From assembly GCA_017650305.1 (NCBI GenBank), contig JAGCFD010000024.1, forward strand, positions 1 through 50,270: a DNA stretch of 50,270 nt, written 5' to 3'. This DNA comes from Bacteroidales bacterium. GTDB taxonomy: Bacteria > Bacteroidota > Bacteroidia > Bacteroidales > WCHB1-69. Below, piece by piece: positions 16,217 through 24,692 of the stretch. Each line of letters opens with the position of its first letter. Positions within the stretch are counted from its first letter, which is position 1. Below the pieces are notes generated by a model, which was not told the origin of the DNA, ran no database searches, and saw only the letters and a program-made list of their open reading frames with translations. The position numbers and the translations under genes were made by a program.

Positions 16217-18502
16217 TCAGTGAGGTTCTATCCTCATCAGGTATTCGTCAATGCTTTGGGCGGCGCTCTTGCCTGCGCCCATAGCGAGGATGACTGTGGC
16301 GGCGCCCGTGACGATGTCGCCGCCGGCGAAGATGCCACGACGAGAGGTCTGGCCTCCCTCATCGGCATTCACACAGCCATGACGGTTCGTTTCAAGACCA
16401 TCGGTGGTGGAGACGATGAGCGGATTAGGCGAGGTGCCGACCGCGATGATGACCATGTCCACATCGATAGTGAAGTCGGAACCGGGGATGGGTATGGGTC
16501 TGCGACGACCGGAGGCGTCGGGCTCGCCCAGTTCCATGCGGGTGCAGACGATGCCCTTGACCCAGCCTTTCTCATCGCTGAGTATCTCTTTAGGATTGCA
16601 GAGCAGGTTCATGACCACCCCCTCTTCTTTTGCGTGGTGCACCTCCTCGGCGCGGGCGGGAAGCTCGGCTTCGGAACGACGATAGACGATATGCACCTCT
16701 GCCCCGAGGCGGATAGCGGTGCGTGCGGCATCCATGGCCACGTTGCCACCGCCGACCACTGCCACGCGCTTACCCACATAGTTGGGTGTCTCATGCTCCT
16801 TCTTGTAGGAGAACAAGAGGTTGTTACGCGTCAAGAATTCATTGGCAGATACCACTCCGCAGAGATTCTCACCTTCGATATTCAAGAAGTTGGGGAAGCC
16901 GGCGCCAGTCCCCAAGAAGATAGCATCGAAGCCCCACTTGTTGAGGATGTCATCCACCGTGACGGTGCGCCCAACCACGATGTCGCTCTCGAACTGCACC
17001 CCCATACGACGGAGGTTGTCAATCTCGGATTTCACCACCGTGTCCTTGGGCAAACGGAATGAGGGGATACCATAGACGAGCACGCCGCCGAATTCGTGCA
17101 AGACCTCAAAGACGGTCACACCATAACCTTTGGCGCGGAGCTCTTTGGCGCAGGTCAGGCCTGCGGGACCACTACCGATAACGGCCACATTGAAGCCATT
17201 CTCGACAATCTCACTGTTGAAAGAGAGCTTGTGCTCTCGCATATAGTCGCCCACAAAGCGCTCGAGTTTGCCGATAGCGACAGGCTCGCCTTTGCGACCG
17301 AGGATGCACTGTCCCTCGCACTGTGTCTCCTGGGGGCAGACACGTCCGCAGACAGCAGGCAAGGCCGTGTCGGCACTGATGATGCGGGCGGCTTCTTCAA
17401 AGTTGCCTTCCGCCACCTTTTGGATGAATTCGGGAATATGGATGGACACCGGGCAGCCTGTAACACAGAGCGGTTTCTTGCAGTTAAGACAACGGCGGGC
17501 CTCCTCAACGGCCTCCTCGGCATTGTAGCCATAGCAGACCTCCTCAAAGTTGCGGCGGCGCTGCTCGGCAGGTTGCTCGCGAACAGGCACCCGACGCTTC
17601 GGCATCGGCGGCTCGTGGGTGATGCCACCGACATGACACACATGACCTTCTTCCTTCTCCTGCTGCTCCATCTGCTTCCGGGTCTCTATATGATCATACA
17701 TCACCTGACGGCGCATGCACTCGTCAAAGTCTATCTTGGAGGCGTCAAACTCGGGACCGTCCACACAGGTGAACTTGGTCTCGCCACCCACCGTCACACG
17801 ACAGGCGCCACACATGCCCGTGCCATCCACCATCAGGGAGTTGAGGCTGACAACACAGGGGATGCCCAGTTCCTGGCACTTTTTGGCAGTGAACTTCATC
17901 ATAATCATCGGACCAATGGCCGTGACCTCGTCGTAGTGCTTTCCCTCTTCTTTCACCAAACGTTGCAACAAGTCCGTAACGGTCCCTTTGAATCCTATAG
18001 AACCGTCATCCGTGGCGATATAGAGATTTTTGGATACAGGGCGCAGTTTCTCGAGATAGAACAGCAGGGATTCGGTACGGGCGCCGATAATCACATCACT
18101 GTCGAGACCATGGGCGTACATCCAGCGCACCAAAGGCAGGATGGGTGCTATACCCACACCGCCTGCGATGAAACAGTACCGCTGCTTGCGCAACAACTCC
18201 ATGGGGCGGTTCACGAAAGCCGAGGGCTGTCCCAACGGTCCGGCAACATCCAAAAAGGAATCCCCTACCGCAAAATTGCTGACCAACTTGCGCGTGGAGA
18301 ACCCTATCGTTTTGATAACCAACGAAATTGTTCCCCTCATCAGGTTAGAGTCACTGATAGTAAGCGGGATGCGTTCTGCTGTTGCATCAGATTTTACTAT
18401 GACAAACTGTCCGGGCAATGCGGCACGGGCAATGTGCGGGGCTTCCACCACTATAAGGTGCGTGTCTTGACCCAATTCCTCTTTTTTCGTGATTCTATAC
18501 AT
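16217..18502 (-). CDS. fused FNR-type and GltD-type flavoprotein (NfnAB/sulfide dehydrogenase-like)
   Basis: 761 residues with two modules. Residues 1-280 are a ferredoxin-NADP-reductase-type module (RIPLTISD, GGVGIAPILPLVRW) ending in a [2Fe-2S] site with C231, C234 and C246 (CGACRVTVGGETKFTC). From about 330 a GltD-like module carries two [4Fe-4S] sets (CLNCKKPLCVTGCP at 338-350, CGRVCPQETQCEGQC at 385-399), an FAD GSGPAG at 443-448 and an NADPH motif VVGGGNVAMDAART. Separate NfnA and NfnB subunits in other anaerobes bifurcate electrons between NADH, ferredoxin and NADPH. The fused form is common in Bacteroidota and often mis-named as DHODH B subunit/glutamate synthase. Nfn-like function is inferred. 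Confidence 0.88.
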   Translation of the reverse strand: MYRITKKEELGQDTHLIVVEAPHIARAALPGQFVIVKSDATAERIPLTISDSNLMRGTISLVIKTIGFSTRKLVSNFAVGDSFLDVAGPLGQPSAFVNRPMELLRKQRYCFIAGGVGIAPILPLVRWMYAHGLDSDVIIGARTESLLFYLEKLRPVSKNLYIATDDGSIGFKGTVTDLLQRLVKEEGKHYDEVTAIGPMIMMKFTAKKCQELGIPCVVSLNSLMVDGTGMCGACRVTVGGETKFTCVDGPEFDASKIDFDECMRRQVMYDHIETRKQMEQQEKEEGHVCHVGGITHEPPMPKRRVPVREQPAEQRRRNFEEVCYGYNAEEAVEEARRCLNCKKPLCVTGCPVSIHIPEFIQKVAEGNFEEAARIISADTALPAVCGRVCPQETQCEGQCILGRKGEPVAIGKLERFVGDYMREHKLSFNSEIVENGFNVAVIGSGPAGLTCAKELRAKGYGVTVFEVLHEFGGVLVYGIPSFRLPKDTVVKSEIDNLRRMGVQFESDIVVGRTVTVDDILNKWGFDAIFLGTGAGFPNFLNIEGENLCGVVSANEFLTRNNLLFSYKKEHETPNYVGKRVAVVGGGNVAMDAARTAIRLGAEVHIVYRRSEAELPARAEEVHHAKEEGVVMNLLCNPKEILSDEKGWVKGIVCTRMELGEPDASGRRRPIPIPGSDFTIDVDMVIIAVGTSPNPLIVSTTDGLETNRHGCVNADEGGQTSRRGIFAGGDIVTGAATVILAMGAGKSAAQSIDEYLMRIEPH

Positions 18503-18588: not shown

Positions 18589-19170
18589 TTATGCGTCATC
18601 CATACTTCCGATAACGAATTCCATCAATTCCTTTCCCCGCTCATTCATCGCTGGCGTGAGCAGATATCGAATCAAATCCCCATCCAGCTTTTTGTCAATG
18701 ACATAATGAAAGACATTGAAGAGAAAAAATGTGGTATATGTGGCTATATTCAATGTCTCCAGAATCTGATAGTGTTGTTTTCCTGTTTGCAAAACCTCCA
18801 TGACAATCTTTGCGAAAGGGGTTTTCACATCCATCATGATATTATGCTTTGCTGCAAAAGTATAATATGACGCCTCCTCGACAGCGACTGCCTGCATCTC
18901 CACTACAAAGACAACCAATGCCTCCACCACATTGTTGCAGGCTGCCTGTCGTTCCCTGATACGCCCTGCAAGATTGCGCATCCAAAGGTCAAAAGAGAGT
19001 TTGGCAGAATTCTCTTTAGAGTGATAACGATTGAAGAATGTCTTTTTTGCAATACCCATCCGGGCTGCAATCTCTTCCACAGAATGGTCAAAACCATTGG
19101 ACATATAGTATTGGTATATCTCCTCGATCTTTTTCTGATAGGTCGTATTCTGTTTCCTTTTGCTATACAT
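18589..19170 (-). CDS. TetR/AcrR family transcriptional regulator
   Basis: 193 residues. The N-terminal helix-turn-helix is visible at about 28-55 (HSVEEIAARMGIAKKTFFNRYHS), with the aromatic FFNRYHSKE end typical of TetR recognition helices. The C-terminal ligand and dimer domain is helical and unassigned. It begins 10 nt after the MauE-like gene stop on the same strand and so is almost certainly co-transcribed with it. This makes it a candidate regulator of that gene, of the adjacent lipoprotein genes, or of itself. No operator palindrome was identified. Confidence 0.85.
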   Translation of the reverse strand: MYSKRKQNTTYQKKIEEIYQYYMSNGFDHSVEEIAARMGIAKKTFFNRYHSKENSAKLSFDLWMRNLAGRIRERQAACNNVVEALVVFVVEMQAVAVEEASYYTFAAKHNIMMDVKTPFAKIVMEVLQTGKQHYQILETLNIATYTTFFLFNVFHYVIDKKLDGDLIRYLLTPAMNERGKELMEFVIGSMDDA

Positions 19171-19180
19171 GGGAAGAGTC

Positions 19181-20119
19181 TTATTTCGATTGGGGTATGA
19201 AATCCACCATGTCGCGTTCTGTCAGCTGGCGCAGATCCGCCGTCTTTACCACCTGGCCGTTGTGGACATAAAGATATGTTGGGAAACGTCCATTAACCAA
19301 TTGCACGGCTACTATGGGTGAGATCGGCACATAGCGGAACTTACTGTCGCCCGTTATCTCCTCAAACTCCGCCAACGACTCTTCCTTTCCCCAGATAGTC
19401 ATCAGGATACGATTGTCATCCAGGTTGTTACGTTCACTTATGGCATGAAGTTTCTCCGCACTTACCTTACAATACTTGCATCCTGAAGCGACCACTCCGA
19501 TAATATAGTTACCCGTATCCAGTTGCTGGGCCTTCATCACGGAATCCTGCATAAATGACTGGAAGGCTTCTTCATTATAGATGTTTTTATCTTTTTTGAA
19601 AAGATTATACACTCCGTCCAAGGGGAACAAGATGAAGGTGGCAGTAAAGGCGGCAAGGAGGCCAAGAATACCCACCAATCTCCAGCCTTTGAAATGCGCG
19701 GGGGGCTCCTTCCGGATCAAGAGCAACAAAGCTATGGTGACAACATTCTTTACTATAGACCAGGCAGGATTCAACTCCACCAGGTCGCCCATACAATGAC
19801 AACTGCTATCATTGCGGAAAATGGCCACATAGACAAGAAACAAAGTGAAACCACACATCATCAGCATCGTGGCCCACCACGTAGGTTTATATAGAATCTT
19901 GAAGATAAGGAAGAATCCCAAAATCATCTCCACCGCAATGACGAGTCGGGCGATGATGGTACTGAACACAAAACTGAAAATCTGGAAACTGAAAATATAG
20001 AGCTCAAAGTGATCCAGAGACAGCAGCTTCATGACGGCAGTGGCAATGAAGAAGGCGCCCAAGAGGATCCGAAGAACCATTTTGAGAATGGAGATAATGT
20101 TGTTATGGGTTGTTTCCAT
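19181..20119 (-). CDS. MauE/DoxX-like redox membrane protein with C-terminal CxxC domain
   Basis: 312 residues. The first 165 form about five membrane helices and hold the MauE/DoxX-type signature: a CxC pair (C107, C109 in SSCHCMGD) followed by a short loop and NPAWSIVKN. After helix 5 an extracytoplasmic domain of about 140 residues contains SGCKYCK (C214/C217), placed where a thioredoxin-like CxxC would be. A TIWGKEESLAEF strand-helix and a PTYLYVHNGQVV segment follow, the latter resembling the cis-Pro strand of thioredoxins. MauE relatives are linked to disulfide formation in methylamine dehydrogenase maturation, so a membrane thiol-redox role is reasonable but inferred. The promoter box at 20161-20168 is directly upstream and tetR follows by 10 nt. 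Confidence 0.8.
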   Translation of the reverse strand: METTHNNIISILKMVLRILLGAFFIATAVMKLLSLDHFELYIFSFQIFSFVFSTIIARLVIAVEMILGFFLIFKILYKPTWWATMLMMCGFTLFLVYVAIFRNDSSCHCMGDLVELNPAWSIVKNVVTIALLLLIRKEPPAHFKGWRLVGILGLLAAFTATFILFPLDGVYNLFKKDKNIYNEEAFQSFMQDSVMKAQQLDTGNYIIGVVASGCKYCKVSAEKLHAISERNNLDDNRILMTIWGKEESLAEFEEITGDSKFRYVPISPIVAVQLVNGRFPTYLYVHNGQVVKTADLRQLTERDMVDFIPQSK

Positions 20120-20160
20120 ATAATAATCGGGTTACTATCTATTAAATTCAAAATGAGCGG

Positions 20161-20168
20161 CAAAGATA
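20161..20168 (-). promoter_or_regulatory. -7 box of the MauE-like gene, touching a terminator T-tract
   Basis: The minus strand reads TATCTTTG, 42 nt before the ATG at 20119. The T-run of the terminator at 20169-20202 ends exactly where this box begins. Confidence 0.6.
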
Positions 20169-20202
20169 AAAAAAAAGAGGATACCCGACAGGATATCCTC
20201 TT
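20169..20202 (-). terminator. intrinsic terminator of the 68-aa lipoprotein gene
   Basis: On the minus strand, arms AAGAGGATA (20202-20194) and TATCCTCTT (20183-20175) form a perfect 9-bp stem with a 10-nt loop, followed by an uninterrupted T-run down to the -7 box of the next gene. It lies 21 nt after the lipoprotein stop codon. Confidence 0.75.
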
Positions 20203-20223
20203 GTAGAAGGTTTCACCTAATTT

Positions 20224-20430
20224 TTAGTGGCACTCCATACCAGTCTTGTGACCATCGATCACAATAACGGTGTTGTAGTCGGAGCACTTCTTGCCACCCT
20301 CGTTGTCGAAAGAGGTTTCGCTAACCACTTCACCATCGAGATAGGTTTTGCAGTTACAGGTCTTGCTGCAGGAAGCTCCACCAATGATAAATAACAGGGC
20401 GAAAGCACTGGCACATAAGAATTTTTTCAT
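20224..20430 (-). CDS. Cys-rich small lipoprotein (68 aa)
   Basis: MKKFLCASAFALLFIIGGASC is a lipoprotein signal with lipid-site Cys21. The mature 47 residues contain four more cysteines (25, 27, 49, 67), enough for two disulfides. The sequence is SKTCNCKTYLDGEV, an acidic stretch, KKCSDYNTVIVIDG and a C-terminal MECH. Similar small lipoproteins with KTCxCxTY and KxCSD patterns occur across Bacteroidales without a known function. The promoter and first 13 codons are almost identical to those of the 152-residue lipoprotein gene at 22219-22677. It has its own promoter (20468-20475) and terminator. Confidence 0.8.
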   Translation of the reverse strand: MKKFLCASAFALLFIIGGASCSKTCNCKTYLDGEVVSETSFDNEGGKKCSDYNTVIVIDGHKTGMECH

Positions 20431-20484
20431 GATGCTTTGAAAATTTTTAGGTTAATAATTCTGGGAGCAAAAGTACACTTTTTT
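20386..20484 (-). repeat. promoter-leader cassette, copy A
   Basis: A 99-nt block identical at 97 positions to 22633-22731 on the same strand. It spans the -7 box, the whole 5' leader, the ATG and about 15 codons of signal peptide (MKKxLCASAFALL). Homology stops inside the signal peptide and the mature proteins are unrelated, so the cassette moved or was duplicated as an expression-and-secretion module. Confidence 0.9.
20468..20475 (-). promoter_or_regulatory. -7 box of the 68-aa lipoprotein gene
   Basis: The minus strand reads TACTTTTG followed by CTCC, 38 nt before the ATG at 20430. The same box and leader are repeated at 22715-22722. Confidence 0.65.
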
Positions 20485-20578
20485 TCTTCTTAAAAACATT
20501 TTTTATAAAAAAAATCACTTGTTTAAAAAAAAATATTGATCAGAAAATTTATGAAACATATTTTTGAAGAAAAAACTA

Positions 20579-22204
20579 CTAATACTCAATCAGATACTTA
20601 AGATTGGAAGGATTGATAATAGTATCAGAAACAATATTCCCGGCATTGTCATATCGGATATGGCGGGCATTAACCCAATAGGCAAAGTATCTGTGAAATG
20701 TTTGATTCGTATCAGCATACATTGGGATTTGAGGCGACACTTTGACTTGGCCTGGGTTTCTCAACTCTCCATCAGACCATAAAACAAACTTCTGAATAAA
20801 ATCCATATCTTGGTTGATTAAGACGACCGCCATGGATCTGTCAAGAAAAGTTTGTCGATGTTCCTTCAAAAAATCAGCATATAGAGGAACGCAATTAAAA
20901 CAGGAGGATTCCGACAATATCAAAAATTCCGAATATTTGCTAAAATCCTTGCCGACAATATTTTTCAAATACGAAGTTAACGCCTCCTTTTCGCTCATTT
21001 TGGGAGCAATTTGGTTCCACTTGTATTTTCTGTTATCAATTTGATTCTTTAAATAAGAGACTTTTCTTGTTTGAATTTGAGGAGTAAAATAGGTATAAGT
21101 CCTATGCGAACAATTCTTTTTGAACAAAAGAAAACCATCTCTATAAGGGATAATGGAAGGTGCATAACCTTCCGGGATGAGACCTTCTCCTATAAGATTC
21201 AAGTTTTCGTCCAACATCATAAAACAATATATGAAATTGTTATACTGCAAAGCTAATGGTGAATCCATTGTGTCGCAGGCGATTCTTGCTGTCACATATA
21301 TTCTTTTATTGACTGTGTCACAAAAAACACGCTCATAACGAGCTTTATACGGATCATATTGTTTGGCTTCCTCGTTTATTTTATAAGGAGAGATGGACGA
21401 TATTAGGCTGGATTTTACCTTTTTATGATAAGTATTGTTGTTTGAAAGGGAATATCTGTAGATGACGGAGTTATTGGGAAACAATGCATAAACATATTCA
21501 GAAGTAGCCACAGCTCTTGGAGAACTATAAAACATTGACCAATAATGATTTTTATCTGTTTTCGGACAAGCAATAGGTAATTTGGTAAAATCCCAGTCTC
21601 GCGATCCATCTTTACTGACACAACCTAAAAAACTTGCTGGCATTATTCCATCCTCATTCCATTTGATAAGCGGCGTGAAAACTTTTCCTCGCTTAAAAAT
21701 CAGAGGAAAATCACAATAAAACACATAGTACCTGCCTGCATCGTTATACATCGGATGACTTTTGGTTCTAACCGGCAACGCATCTAATTTTACCGTGTCT
21801 GAGATGTTTCCATGCCTGTCTATCATAAGAAGTGCCCCATCTTGAAAATCATGGTCGTAAACAGTATTAACTGCTATCAGCACCGTGTCATGAGATATAG
21901 GAAGGACTCGATTAATTTCCAGATTTTGTTTCACATTCAAGTTGAACGAGTCAAGTAGCATGTTTTGAGTCAAATCATAGACTATCCACTGATTGGCTGG
22001 ACGACGAATTCCTTCAGTAATAATATGACCAGTGCTGTCGATACGGGTACAAAACACAAAACCAGGAGAAAGATCCTTTGTATTAACAGGGGTGACAATA
22101 TCATAATTATCTTGCAAGGAAATCACTGTCACATCACGTTCTATGTGACATGAATAAAACAGACACAACAAAAGAATAATCGCTATGGCCTTTCGAGAAA
22201 GCAT
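20579..22204 (-). CDS. large lipoprotein, beta-propeller-like with C-terminal CxxC (DUF4221-like)
   Basis: 541 residues from the ATG at 22204, which gives MLSRKAIAIILLLCLFYSC with a lipobox ending at Cys19. An ATG 8 codons upstream would overlap the previous gene and weaken the signal. The body is beta-rich with repeated strand-turn units (NQWIVYDLTQNMLLDSF, GALLMIDRHGNISDTVKL, VIYRYSLSNNNTYHKKV), resembling the six-bladed propeller lipoproteins found beside small exported peptides in Bacteroidota; the DUF4221-like label is tentative. From about 425 comes a separate thioredoxin-like strand-helix with C435-x-x-C438 (SSCFNCVPLYADFLKEH) and a DIQ-type strand (MAVVLINQDMDFIQKF). It starts 14 nt after the 152-aa lipoprotein gene and is presumably co-transcribed with it. 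Confidence 0.78.
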   Translation of the reverse strand: MLSRKAIAIILLLCLFYSCHIERDVTVISLQDNYDIVTPVNTKDLSPGFVFCTRIDSTGHIITEGIRRPANQWIVYDLTQNMLLDSFNLNVKQNLEINRVLPISHDTVLIAVNTVYDHDFQDGALLMIDRHGNISDTVKLDALPVRTKSHPMYNDAGRYYVFYCDFPLIFKRGKVFTPLIKWNEDGIMPASFLGCVSKDGSRDWDFTKLPIACPKTDKNHYWSMFYSSPRAVATSEYVYALFPNNSVIYRYSLSNNNTYHKKVKSSLISSISPYKINEEAKQYDPYKARYERVFCDTVNKRIYVTARIACDTMDSPLALQYNNFIYCFMMLDENLNLIGEGLIPEGYAPSIIPYRDGFLLFKKNCSHRTYTYFTPQIQTRKVSYLKNQIDNRKYKWNQIAPKMSEKEALTSYLKNIVGKDFSKYSEFLILSESSCFNCVPLYADFLKEHRQTFLDRSMAVVLINQDMDFIQKFVLWSDGELRNPGQVKVSPQIPMYADTNQTFHRYFAYWVNARHIRYDNAGNIVSDTIINPSNLKYLIEY

Positions 22205-22218
22205 CTGACAAAATATTA

Positions 22219-22677
22219 TCAAGAACATGAAACAATCAACACAGAAACGTCAGAACCACCAGGACTGACCGAAATTTCAAGATGGCAAGTGTTTCCTCGT
22301 CCCGAACAAGTTACGTATGTATTACCTTGATCATCATACGTTTGCGAAAAAATATGGTCGCATTCGCTCATAGCACTTGCAATAGTGAGGGAATCTCTTG
22401 AATTATAGCATACAGGAATTAATAAACGATCCCTTGAAGTATCTTTAAAAACTGTAAAATCTATGTAACCAGGCGTAATATACTCATCCAAATTGAAATC
22501 TAACAGATCTGGATCAATCTGAATATAGCCACATTCATTCATAAAGGATGTGACATCTGAATAATAAGGGACACCTTGGGGTGTCAATTGCGTTTGGGAG
22601 TTCTCTATTTTATCCTTGGAGCATGAAAAAAAGATCAATAACAGGGCGAAAGCACTGGCACATAAGATTTTTTTCAT
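22219..22677 (-). CDS. Cys-rich lipoprotein (152 aa)
   Basis: MKKILCASAFALLLIFFSC is the lipoprotein signal with lipid-site Cys19. The mature chain has six further cysteines (49, 90, 106, 124, 131, 151), again an even number compatible with disulfides. Other visible parts are an N-terminal Thr/Gln-rich linker, an acidic DPDLLDFNLDEYITPG region and a C-terminal beta-rich stretch (GNTYVTCSGRGNTCHLEISV). No family recognised. The promoter, leader and first 13 codons are shared with the 68-residue lipoprotein gene. The large CxxC lipoprotein gene follows 14 nt downstream, so this promoter probably drives both. Confidence 0.75.
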   Translation of the reverse strand: MKKILCASAFALLLIFFSCSKDKIENSQTQLTPQGVPYYSDVTSFMNECGYIQIDPDLLDFNLDEYITPGYIDFTVFKDTSRDRLLIPVCYNSRDSLTIASAMSECDHIFSQTYDDQGNTYVTCSGRGNTCHLEISVSPGGSDVSVLIVSCS

Positions 22678-22731
22678 GATGCTTTGAAAATTTTTAGGTT
22701 AATAATTCTGGGAGCAAAAGTACACTTTTTT
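22633..22731 (-). repeat. promoter-leader cassette, copy B
   Basis: Partner of 20386-20484 in direct orientation, 97 of 99 positions identical. It covers the -7 box, leader, start codon and the shared N-terminal half of the signal peptide. The two copies are 2.2 kb apart and flank the large lipoprotein gene. Confidence 0.9.
22715..22722 (-). promoter_or_regulatory. -7 box of the 152-aa lipoprotein gene
   Basis: TACTTTTG on the minus strand, 38 nt before the ATG at 22677, the same spacing as in copy A. Confidence 0.65.
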
Positions 22732-22956: not shown

Positions 22957-24675
22957 TTACTCACGAATACCTTGTGGAATAGCATTGAGTAAAGTGCGTG
23001 TATAGTCGGTTTGGGGATTGCGGCAGAGCTCGTCAGCCTCGCCTAATTCCACGATTCGGCCTTGCTGCATCACGGCGATGCGGTCGGACATGAAGCGGAC
23101 CACGGAGAGGTCGTGCGAAATAAAGATATAGGTAAACTGGTACTCGTTTTTCAGTTCATTGAGAAGATTGAGGACTTGGGCCTGGACGGACACATCGAGG
23201 GCGGACACGGACTCGTCACAGATGATGAAGCGGGGGTTGACAGCCAATGCACGGGCGATGGAGATACGCTGGCGCTGGCCGCCGGAGAACTCGTGTGGAT
23301 AGCGATAAAAATGCGACTCGTTCAGGCTCACGCGCTCCAACAAGGCAATAGCTTTGCTTCGGCGCTCCTTCTCATTGCCTCCAATGCCATGCACGCGCAT
23401 CGGCTCGGTGAGCATATCGCCTATGGTAAGCCTTTGGTTTAACGACGAATAGGGATCCTGCAAGATAATCTGTAGATCTTTGCGTACAGAACGCAACTCC
23501 CGGGAGGAGAGTTTCATCAGGTCGCGGCCCTGATAGGTTACGGAGCCTGCGGTAGGCTCTATAAGCCGTATCATGGAGCGTCCGAGGGTGGTCTTGCCGC
23601 ATCCCGATTCTCCAACGAGTCCCAGCGTCTCTCCTTCGTAGATGTCAAGGTTGATGTCTTGCAACGCCTCCACAAAGCGTCGCTTTTCAAAAAGTTTCTC
23701 CTTCCGCACAGGATATCGTTTGCTGAGACCCCGGATAGTGATGAGCGGCTTGGCGGAATACAATTGTTGATGTTTCTTGTTTCTCTCCTCCGGCGTAACC
23801 TGCTGGCGAGGGACTTGGCCGTCATGGCTCACGAAATCATCGACCGTAGGCAAGGTGACAAGTCGTTCGGTCATGGAGGGACGGCAGGCCAAGAGACCCT
23901 GGGTATATGGATGTTGTGGATGCAAGAAGATATCACGGATATCGCCTTGCTCTACCACTTCGCCCTTGAAGAGCACCACCACTTTGCGAGCGATTTCTGC
24001 CACCACGCCCAAGTCATGAGTGATAAAGAAGACGCTCATGCCATGTTTCTTCTGCAGTCTCTTGATGAGGTCGAGGATACCTTTCTGGACAGTCACATCC
24101 AAGGCGGTGGTAGGCTCATCGGCAATGAGAACGTCAGGTTGGCAGCTCATGGCCATGGCGATCATGACGCGCTGTTTCTGACCTCCGGAGAGCTCATGCG
24201 GGTAGGATTGGAATATCTGTTCGGGACGAGGCAGCATCACCTCGTTAAAGAGTTCTATGACGCGCGCTTTGGCAGCCTCGGGGGTGCAGTGGGTATGCAA
24301 CAGCAGCTGTTCTGTAATCTGTTCGCCACAGCGGATGACCGGATTGAGGGAGGTCATGGGCTCCTGGAAGATCATCGCCACCCGGCGACCGCGCATCGAC
24401 CGCATCTCCTTCTCCGTCAATTTGAGAAGGTCTGTTCCCTCTTCCTGGCCTTCTTCACAAAAAAGAATTCGGCCTGACGGATAGCGGGCGATATTTCGGT
24501 TCAGCAGTTGCATGACGGATAACGCCGTCACTGACTTGCCGGAGCCGGACTCGCCAACAATGCCAATGGTTTCGCCTCTGCCCACTTCAAAAGTGACATG
24601 CCGAAGGATGGACTTCCATTCCCCGTCCTGCTTCAAATCCAGCGAAAGATCTTCTATTTTTAAAAGCGCATCCAT
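22957..24675 (-). CDS. fused DppD-DppF-type ABC transporter ATP-binding protein
   Basis: 572 residues from MDALLKIEDLSLDLK (ATG 24675; a start four codons earlier falls within the promoter region). It contains two complete ABC ATPase domains. The first has Walker A GESGSGKS, signature ELSGGQKQR and Walker B IADEPTTALD; the second has GESGCGKT, EFSGGQRQR and ICDESVSALD. Each is followed by the oligopeptide/dipeptide C-terminal extension (HPQHPYTQGLL, NPQTDYTRTLL). This is the architecture of the fused nickel/peptide importer ATPases. No permease or binding-protein gene is adjacent, so its membrane partners must lie elsewhere. Peptide import is inferred from the family and suits the peptidases in the window. 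Confidence 0.92.
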   Translation of the reverse strand: MDALLKIEDLSLDLKQDGEWKSILRHVTFEVGRGETIGIVGESGSGKSVTALSVMQLLNRNIARYPSGRILFCEEGQEEGTDLLKLTEKEMRSMRGRRVAMIFQEPMTSLNPVIRCGEQITEQLLLHTHCTPEAAKARVIELFNEVMLPRPEQIFQSYPHELSGGQKQRVMIAMAMSCQPDVLIADEPTTALDVTVQKGILDLIKRLQKKHGMSVFFITHDLGVVAEIARKVVVLFKGEVVEQGDIRDIFLHPQHPYTQGLLACRPSMTERLVTLPTVDDFVSHDGQVPRQQVTPEERNKKHQQLYSAKPLITIRGLSKRYPVRKEKLFEKRRFVEALQDINLDIYEGETLGLVGESGCGKTTLGRSMIRLIEPTAGSVTYQGRDLMKLSSRELRSVRKDLQIILQDPYSSLNQRLTIGDMLTEPMRVHGIGGNEKERRSKAIALLERVSLNESHFYRYPHEFSGGQRQRISIARALAVNPRFIICDESVSALDVSVQAQVLNLLNELKNEYQFTYIFISHDLSVVRFMSDRIAVMQQGRIVELGEADELCRNPQTDYTRTLLNAIPQGIRE

Positions 24676-24684
24676 AAGAAAGTG

Positions 24685-24692
24685 CAAAAATA
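24685..24692 (-). promoter_or_regulatory. -7 box of the ABC ATPase gene, nearly leaderless
   Basis: TATTTTTG on the minus strand, ending only 10 nt before the ATG at 24675, so the leader would be about 3 nt. This fixes the start codon, because the earlier in-frame ATG at 24687 overlaps the box. Confidence 0.6.

Follow-up and report, generated by a model that had tools for sequence, protein, structure and literature searches.

MauE-thioredoxin fusion proteins and CxC mini-lipoproteins form a conserved gene pair in Bacteroidales, a candidate thiol-disulfide relay of the envelope

Which of the cysteine-rich envelope proteins encoded side by side in a Bacteroidales genome belong together, and what might they do? 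The question is raised by a locus on the minus strand (positions 18589-22731) of the window, by which we mean the whole 50,270-nt stretch of DNA analysed here. Five open reading frames are present in this locus, all on the minus strand. They encode two small Cys-rich lipoproteins of 68 and 152 residues, a large lipoprotein, a membrane protein with a MauE/DoxX-type domain fused to a thioredoxin-like domain (MauE-Trx), and a TetR-like regulator. An earlier sequence-only reading had taken the five genes as one thiol-redox island. The comparison with related genomes gives a narrower answer: MauE-Trx and the 68-residue protein, a CxC mini-lipoprotein, form a conserved pair in Bacteroidales, and the partnership between them is well supported. 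Related loci that carry a title are all (21 of 21) from Bacteroidales or Bacteroidetes, many of them, judging by the titles, from ruminants or horses.

MauE-Trx matches the Pfam family MauE (PF07291) with 80.9 bits against a cut-off of 27, and DoxX with 24.8 bits against 23.6. These are the only families found in the Pfam scan of the protein; VKOR (PF07884) and DsbB (PF02600) are not matched. There are two cysteine motifs, C107-x-C109 in the membrane half and C214-x-x-C217 in the C-terminal domain, and all four cysteines are invariant in 21 aligned MauE sequences, including that of the window. The structural model contains five long helices, in agreement with the five-helix MauE-like protein of the sequence-only reading. 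However, the model places C107-x-C109 not inside a helix but in the loop that follows the third long helix (between helices 77-102 and 118-134), which is modelled at low confidence (predicted local distance difference test, pLDDT, below 50 at residues 110-115). A conserved CxC in the loop that joins the third to the fourth long helix is a feature of the MauE family.

The thioredoxin-like domain of MauE-Trx is probably periplasmic. In the model, C214-x-x-C217 opens the first helix of this domain, and P280 is positioned like a cis-proline. Residues 183-312 match DsbF, ResA and CcmG in the VIA fold comparison and TlpA in Foldseek. The hallmark of the ResA/TlpA type, a thioredoxin fold with a CxxC starting its first helix, is found by the model, Foldseek and VIA alike. 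The BT_3928 family (NCBIfam NF045576) is similar to MauE-Trx in the membrane domain (residues 14-136), with a score of 51.9 bits that does not reach the cut-off of 250. Searches of PDB sequences with the single MauE-Trx and the single large-lipoprotein proteins gave nothing useful. A second MauE-domain protein is encoded in the genome of the window (a 399-residue frame, G000:C3:20556-20978; L002, L198). In family f91 (L208, L209), a 1076-residue gene that is AsmA-like by eye shares 13 bp with the longest MauE-Trx frame.

In the mini-lipoprotein of the window, the lipid-bearing Cys21 is followed by four cysteines, C25-x-C27, C49 and C67. The lipid cysteine and the four further cysteines are invariant across ten small lipoproteins found by similarity to that of the window. 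Outside the cysteines the mini-lipoproteins are hardly conserved, with a mean column identity of 21%. The protein of the window has no match in Pfam or NCBIfam, and in a search with 52 mature mini-lipoprotein sequences, any family matched at E 0.1 was matched by just one of them. Further members were found with a pattern, consisting of a lipobox, 2 to 7 residues, CxC and two more cysteines in a frame of 45-130 residues. As the cysteine pattern was the search criterion, the invariance of the cysteines in an alignment of proteins found in this way is partly by construction; their position beside MauE-Trx is not.

The pattern was searched at 127 MauE-Trx loci, 97 from the family of the window and 30 from the order outside this family. 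The matches are concentrated close to MauE-Trx, with 54 in 147 kb at 0-600 bp, 9 in 214 kb at 0.6-1.5 kb, 6 in 333 kb at 1.5-3 kb, and 1 in 370 kb at 3-6.5 kb. One of the seven matches at 1.5-6.5 kb is evidently false, and one round of base-shuffled loci (1.19 Mb) gave none at all. Counted per locus, with the additional demand that the protein start with MK, MR, MY or MN, 45 of the 127 loci (22 of 39 genera) have a CxC lipoprotein no more than 600 bp from MauE-Trx, compared to 3 loci (2 genera) with one at more than 1.5 kb, in almost five times more DNA. In 16 of the 39 genera it precedes MauE-Trx on the same strand, at a distance of up to 300 bp. The orientations among the 124 loci of the MauE-Trx tree are upstream on the same strand (24), downstream convergent (16), divergent (2) and downstream on the same strand (1), so that the pair is not one frozen gene order. 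At the phylum level, 1 of 11 loci (that of the window excluded) has a CxC lipoprotein in its 1.5 kb flanks, about 50 bp before the MauE-Trx match.

Two distinct CxC lipoprotein subtypes are found convergent to MauE-Trx in genus g10 (L070, L162-L168) and genus g14 (L178-L184), with the ends of the two genes -3 to 16 bp apart. In genus g90 (L238, L239, L240), which also has MauE-Trx, arrays of 2 to 4 CxC mini-lipoproteins are located away from it.

The two proteins also co-occur across genomes. MauE-Trx is present in 97 of the 104 genomes of the family (53 of the 53 good ones), in 34 of 247 genomes sampled across the order (4 are from the genus of the window), and in 12 of 296 over the phylum (window's included), 3 of which match little beyond the membrane half. 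Positive family genomes have 1 to 9 mini-lipoprotein matches each, by a profile that includes the signal peptide, on which some of the weaker matches may rest; three family genomes (G049, G050 and G074) match neither protein. Profile A6 was built with lipoproteins from the family of the window only. It matches seven genomes of other families (G176, G184, G193, G212, G264, G336 and G345), and all seven have MauE-Trx, against a background of 30 in 243 (hypergeometric probability 2e-7 by genome and 3e-4 by genus). The seven genomes fall in four genera, and the independent evidence is therefore smaller than the count. In five of them the two genes are on different contigs or are separated by hundreds of kb. 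A6 replaced profile A5, which had been built with lipoproteins from many of the tested loci themselves (the pattern match L212 was excluded from it as not lipoprotein-like). The A5 result, 21 positive genomes of 247 and MauE-Trx in all 21, was for this reason dropped as a proof of co-occurrence. Profile A1, which contains signal peptides, matches 8 of the 247 genomes, all 8 with MauE-Trx; 4 are from the genus of the window and 3 from one other genus.

We give an even chance to the proposal that, in the envelope of Bacteroidales, MauE-Trx and the CxC mini-lipoproteins act as a dedicated thiol-disulfide relay. The mini-lipoprotein would be exported and lipidated at Cys21, which would leave four cysteines able to make two disulfides. 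The thioredoxin-like domain, located outside the inner membrane, would swap thiols with the mini-lipoprotein through C214/C217, and C107/C109, at the outer face of the inner membrane, would swap thiols with the thioredoxin-like domain. With an oxidising flow, electrons would pass from the lipoprotein thiols to the thioredoxin-like domain, then to the CxC and finally to quinone, and MauE-Trx would be comparable to a VKOR-Trx fusion, or to DsbA together with DsbB, with a limited client range. The pairing and co-occurrence of the genes, the folds of the domains and the invariance of the cysteines are computational results; we infer the physical interaction, topology, electron path, quinone and direction of this relay.

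The direction is the weakest step, and oxidation is the most likely one. A profile search matched DsbB in none of the 40 genomes of the genus, including that of the window, and DsbD_TM in 31 of them, which leaves room for an oxidase in this genus. VKOR was not matched in the genome of the window or in any of the four genomes of its genus in the order set. Over this set, VKOR (14 of 247) and MauE-Trx (34 of 247) never overlap, which is weak evidence as chance alone gives non-overlap 12% of the time. The nearest folds of the thioredoxin-like domain include both reductants and oxidants.

Several known systems resemble the proposed relay. MauE of methylamine dehydrogenase maturation has the same membrane domain with a CxC loop, and also a small, Cys-rich exported partner. 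MauD is a separate protein in mau clusters, whereas MauE-Trx carries its own fused thioredoxin-like domain and its candidate client is a 50-residue lipoprotein. The Pfam scan of eight genes of the window found no methylamine dehydrogenase or other mau structural family. VKOR-Trx fusions and DsbA/DsbB combine membrane helices with a thioredoxin-like domain in a relay of two cysteine pairs that serves general substrates. MauE-Trx shares the helices, the thioredoxin-like domain and, as predicted, the two-pair relay, but its membrane domain is of the MauE/DoxX type and the substrate set is proposed to be narrow. It differs from ResA, DsbF, CcmG and TlpA in the fusion of the thioredoxin-like domain to a MauE domain. 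In an excerpt of PMC7794033, disulfide formation in one subunit of methylamine dehydrogenase is put forward as a speculative role of MauE, and clusters of Streptomyces are described that pair MauE homologues with precursors of at least 8 cysteines. These clusters, which resemble those for ribosomally synthesized and post-translationally modified peptides (RiPP-like), are similar to our pair in having a MauE homologue, with a proposed maturation role, beside a small Cys-rich protein. They differ in the phylum and in the larger number of cysteines, and the excerpt mentions no lipobox (PMC7794033). No account of the pair of MauE-Trx and mini-lipoprotein was found in the open-licence papers searched.

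The large lipoprotein and the 152-residue lipoprotein have a different distribution. The former has its lipid Cys at position 27 and its CxxC at C443/C446, counted from the first ATG; this is the C435-x-x-C438 of the sequence-only reading, which had counted from an ATG eight codons later. Both residues are invariant in eight aligned sequences, including that of the window, from the nine loci known (the copy of G045, a fragment with stops, was omitted). In the 152-residue protein, lipid Cys19 is followed by C49, C90, C106, C124, C131 and C151, so that the earlier counts of four and six further cysteines in the two small lipoproteins are borne out. Its gene overlaps that of the large lipoprotein by 10 bp, and a relative precedes the large lipoprotein at four of the eight other loci. 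The large lipoprotein is present in 9 of the 104 genomes of the family. Around the eight copies outside the window, a stretch of 9-17.5 kb was searched for MauE-Trx, without a match. In G014 the gene order is ABC gene, 152-residue lipoprotein, large lipoprotein and mini-lipoprotein; this copy is beside a GMP-synthase-like gene, on a different contig from MauE-Trx. The large and 152-residue lipoproteins are therefore probably a sporadic, separate pair, not part of the pair of MauE-Trx and mini-lipoprotein. They may be a redox system of their own.

Searches with profiles and folds for the C-terminal domain of the large lipoprotein return thioredoxin-fold proteins at weak E-values, and unrelated proteins as well. 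The single-sequence model is poor (pLDDT 59.8), and its thioredoxin-like fold matches (best E 0.02) are therefore no more than suggestive. Redoxin is matched by three of the eight aligned large lipoproteins (best 0.003) and DUF4221 (PF13970) by two (best 1e-5), neither of them by that of the window. The thioredoxin fold for which the sequence-only reading proposed to look in the two CxxC regions is seen in MauE-Trx, by the model and the fold matches, and weakly in the large lipoprotein. A profile comparison between the CxxC domain of MauE-Trx and that of the large lipoprotein (31% probability) is uninformative. In G038 (L065 8625-9320), two adjacent relatives of the 152-residue lipoprotein are upstream of the large one, and at L068 (6749-7261) a different Cys-rich lipoprotein (170-residue frame) is upstream of a distant large-lipoprotein relative. 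Small Cys-rich and large CxxC lipoproteins may recur together as a separate kind of pair.

Several observations weigh against the relay of MauE-Trx and mini-lipoproteins. At 82 of the 127 MauE-Trx loci there is no CxC lipoprotein within 600 bp, including 36 of the 39 in the window's own genus. Among the 30 MauE-Trx genomes outside the family, 23 have no lipoprotein match to A6 and 13 have none even to A5. Four metagenome-assembled genomes of the family (G015, G067, G079 and G083, 76-89% complete) match the lipoprotein and not MauE-Trx, and the reverse is true for G097 (95% complete) and G098 (53%). In the window itself, a terminator between the two genes (see below) speaks against a single transcript for the pair. 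The helical part of MauE-Trx matches NACHO in a single row of the fold comparison, with a Z score that unrelated helical bundles can reach, and this part may have another membrane fold. Moreover, ResA, CcmG and TlpA, among the nearest folds of the thioredoxin-like domain, are reductants in the well-studied cases.

This last point bears on an alternative in which the partnership is the same and the direction is reversed. MauE-Trx would then be a reductase that keeps the thiols of the CxC and the other two cysteines free, for example for the loading of a metal or cofactor, as TlpA, ResA and CcmG do for their clients. The thioredoxin-like domain is near ResA, DsbF, CcmG and TlpA, and four conserved cysteines in a 50-residue protein could form a metal site. 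A DsbD-type reductant route is however already present in most genomes of the genus (31 of 40), and we regard the reversed direction as unlikely. The mini-lipoproteins could also be mobile redox carriers between MauE-Trx and other envelope proteins, instead of clients, as there are often several copies per genome, some in arrays away from MauE-Trx, and both partners have a CxC. We consider this distinctly improbable, since the low identity outside the cysteines would be unusual for a carrier with several docking partners. In another reading they would be peptides resembling effectors or antigens, built of variable loops on a disulfide scaffold, and MauE-Trx would do no more than mature them. 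The fixed cysteines, variable loops and multiple copies are consistent with it, as are the maturation role proposed for MauE in the RiPP-like clusters of Streptomyces (excerpt of PMC7794033) and the oligopeptide-type ABC ATPase gene found within 800 bp upstream at 56 of the 97 family loci. The lipobox (itself part of the search pattern) implies anchoring, not release, and the ABC gene is present also where no lipoprotein is near; this reading is very unlikely.

There is also little to be said for the view that the two genes are functionally unrelated and came together by chance or at a common hot spot for small genes. The 36 genus loci that lack the pair would fit it, but the positional enrichment and the out-of-sample co-occurrence make it highly improbable. 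We judge just as harshly the five-gene island, in which the large lipoprotein, both small lipoproteins, MauE-Trx and TetR would act together. Their adjacency on one strand, the invariant CxxC of the large lipoprotein with its weakly thioredoxin-like domain, and the order of ABC gene and three lipoproteins repeated in G014 are in its favor. On the other hand, the sporadic large lipoprotein has no MauE-Trx near its other eight copies, and that of G014 is on another contig, beside the GMP-synthase-like gene. The island was accordingly rejected as a unit, and a place for the large lipoprotein in the relay, as in one of the options of the sequence-only reading, is not supported. The link that this reading drew between a redox membrane protein and Cys-rich lipoproteins is supported for the mini-lipoprotein, over many genera, but not for the large and 152-residue lipoproteins. 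Similarly, the conserved neighbourhood in relatives, set beforehand as a test, was found for the pair and not for the five genes.

The features of the locus are listed in Table 1. In the order of transcription on the minus strand, the genes encode the ABC ATPase, the 152-residue, 549-residue and 68-residue lipoproteins, MauE-Trx, the TetR-like regulator, a ferredoxin/pyridine-nucleotide oxidoreductase and an S46 peptidase. The oxidoreductase has, by Pfam, electron-transfer domains of the dihydroorotate-dehydrogenase type followed by a glutamate-synthase-like Fe-S and pyridine-nucleotide part, an order also found in ferredoxin:NADP oxidoreductases. The TetR gene named in the sequence-only reading is indeed the last of the five on the strand, but its match to TetR_N (PF00440) is weak, 20.6 bits with a curated cut-off of 24, and we keep it as TetR-like. 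In 38 of the 39 genomes of the genus a relative is found downstream of MauE-Trx, at a distance of up to 1 kb (the sequence of the 39th ends 89 bp after MauE-Trx); none was detected at the 58 MauE-Trx loci from the other genera of the family.

Table 1. Positions of genes and other elements in the window
Feature	Position	Strand	Basis or remark
ABC transporter ATPase gene, oligopeptide type	22957-24687	minus	Pfam scan
152-residue Cys-rich lipoprotein	22219-22677	minus	
Large lipoprotein, 549 residues, C-terminal redoxin-like CxxC domain	20579-22228	minus	
CxC mini-lipoprotein, 68 residues	20224-20430	minus	alignments; enrichment beside MauE-Trx
MauE-Trx	19181-20119	minus	MauE/DoxX-type membrane domain fused to thioredoxin-like domain
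TetR-like regulator gene	18589-19170	minus	weak TetR_N match; neighbour kept within genus only
Ferredoxin/pyridine-nucleotide oxidoreductase	16217-18502	minus	
Intrinsic terminator, 12-bp stem and T tract, between mini-lipoprotein and MauE-Trx	20175-20202	minus	
TATCTTTG, candidate own promoter of MauE-Trx	20161-20168	minus	likeness to Bacteroidota -7 box
95-bp leader (promoter-like region, start, signal peptide) of mini-lipoprotein gene	20390-20484	minus	
Second copy of 95-bp leader, at 152-residue lipoprotein gene	22637-22731	minus	one mismatch

The terminator between the mini-lipoprotein and MauE-Trx genes is the longest of five terminator-like sites in the region (3.4 expected), and 7 of 200 shuffles fold as well. 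It is followed by TATCTTTG, which resembles the Bacteroidota -7 promoter box (consensus TAnnTTTG), and two separate transcripts are likely for the pair in the window. Just as the 95-bp leader occurs twice in the window, two matching leaders of a different sequence are seen by eye in G014, an observation that points to local copying or conversion. At 33 of the 39 genus loci the ABC gene is found upstream of MauE-Trx at a distance of up to 800 bp; at one of these (G028) the lipoprotein gene is located between the two. In the clade of six species to which the window belongs (support 100), the mini-lipoprotein gene comes after the ABC gene, with intervening genes in G014, G017 and the window; for the window and G014 these include the 152-residue and large lipoprotein genes. 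The mini-lipoprotein also precedes MauE-Trx in the window, G017 and G028, and MauE-Trx is elsewhere in G013, G014 and G020. These gene orders suggest that the pair was re-formed in this clade and that the two other lipoprotein genes arrived next to the ABC gene. In a quick, midpoint-rooted MauE-Trx tree with long branches (3 of the 127 rows were too short and were left out), both main branches contain the upstream arrangement, which may be old.

To our knowledge, disulfide formation in gut Bacteroidales without DsbB has been little studied. As a tentative proposal, which we hold to be somewhat less than an even bet, MauE-Trx would be a one-protein membrane oxidase, a further type beside DsbB and VKOR, in a previously undescribed disulfide relay of Bacteroidota. 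Its own clients would be CxC mini-lipoproteins, an extensive and rapidly evolving family that has so far been detected almost exclusively in genomes with MauE-Trx. The role of MauE-type proteins is still termed speculation in the excerpt of PMC7794033, and the pair offers a simple two-protein system for testing it. It would also provide a starting point for the study of small lipoproteins that lie outside the models of Pfam and NCBIfam and are often present in multiple copies per genome.

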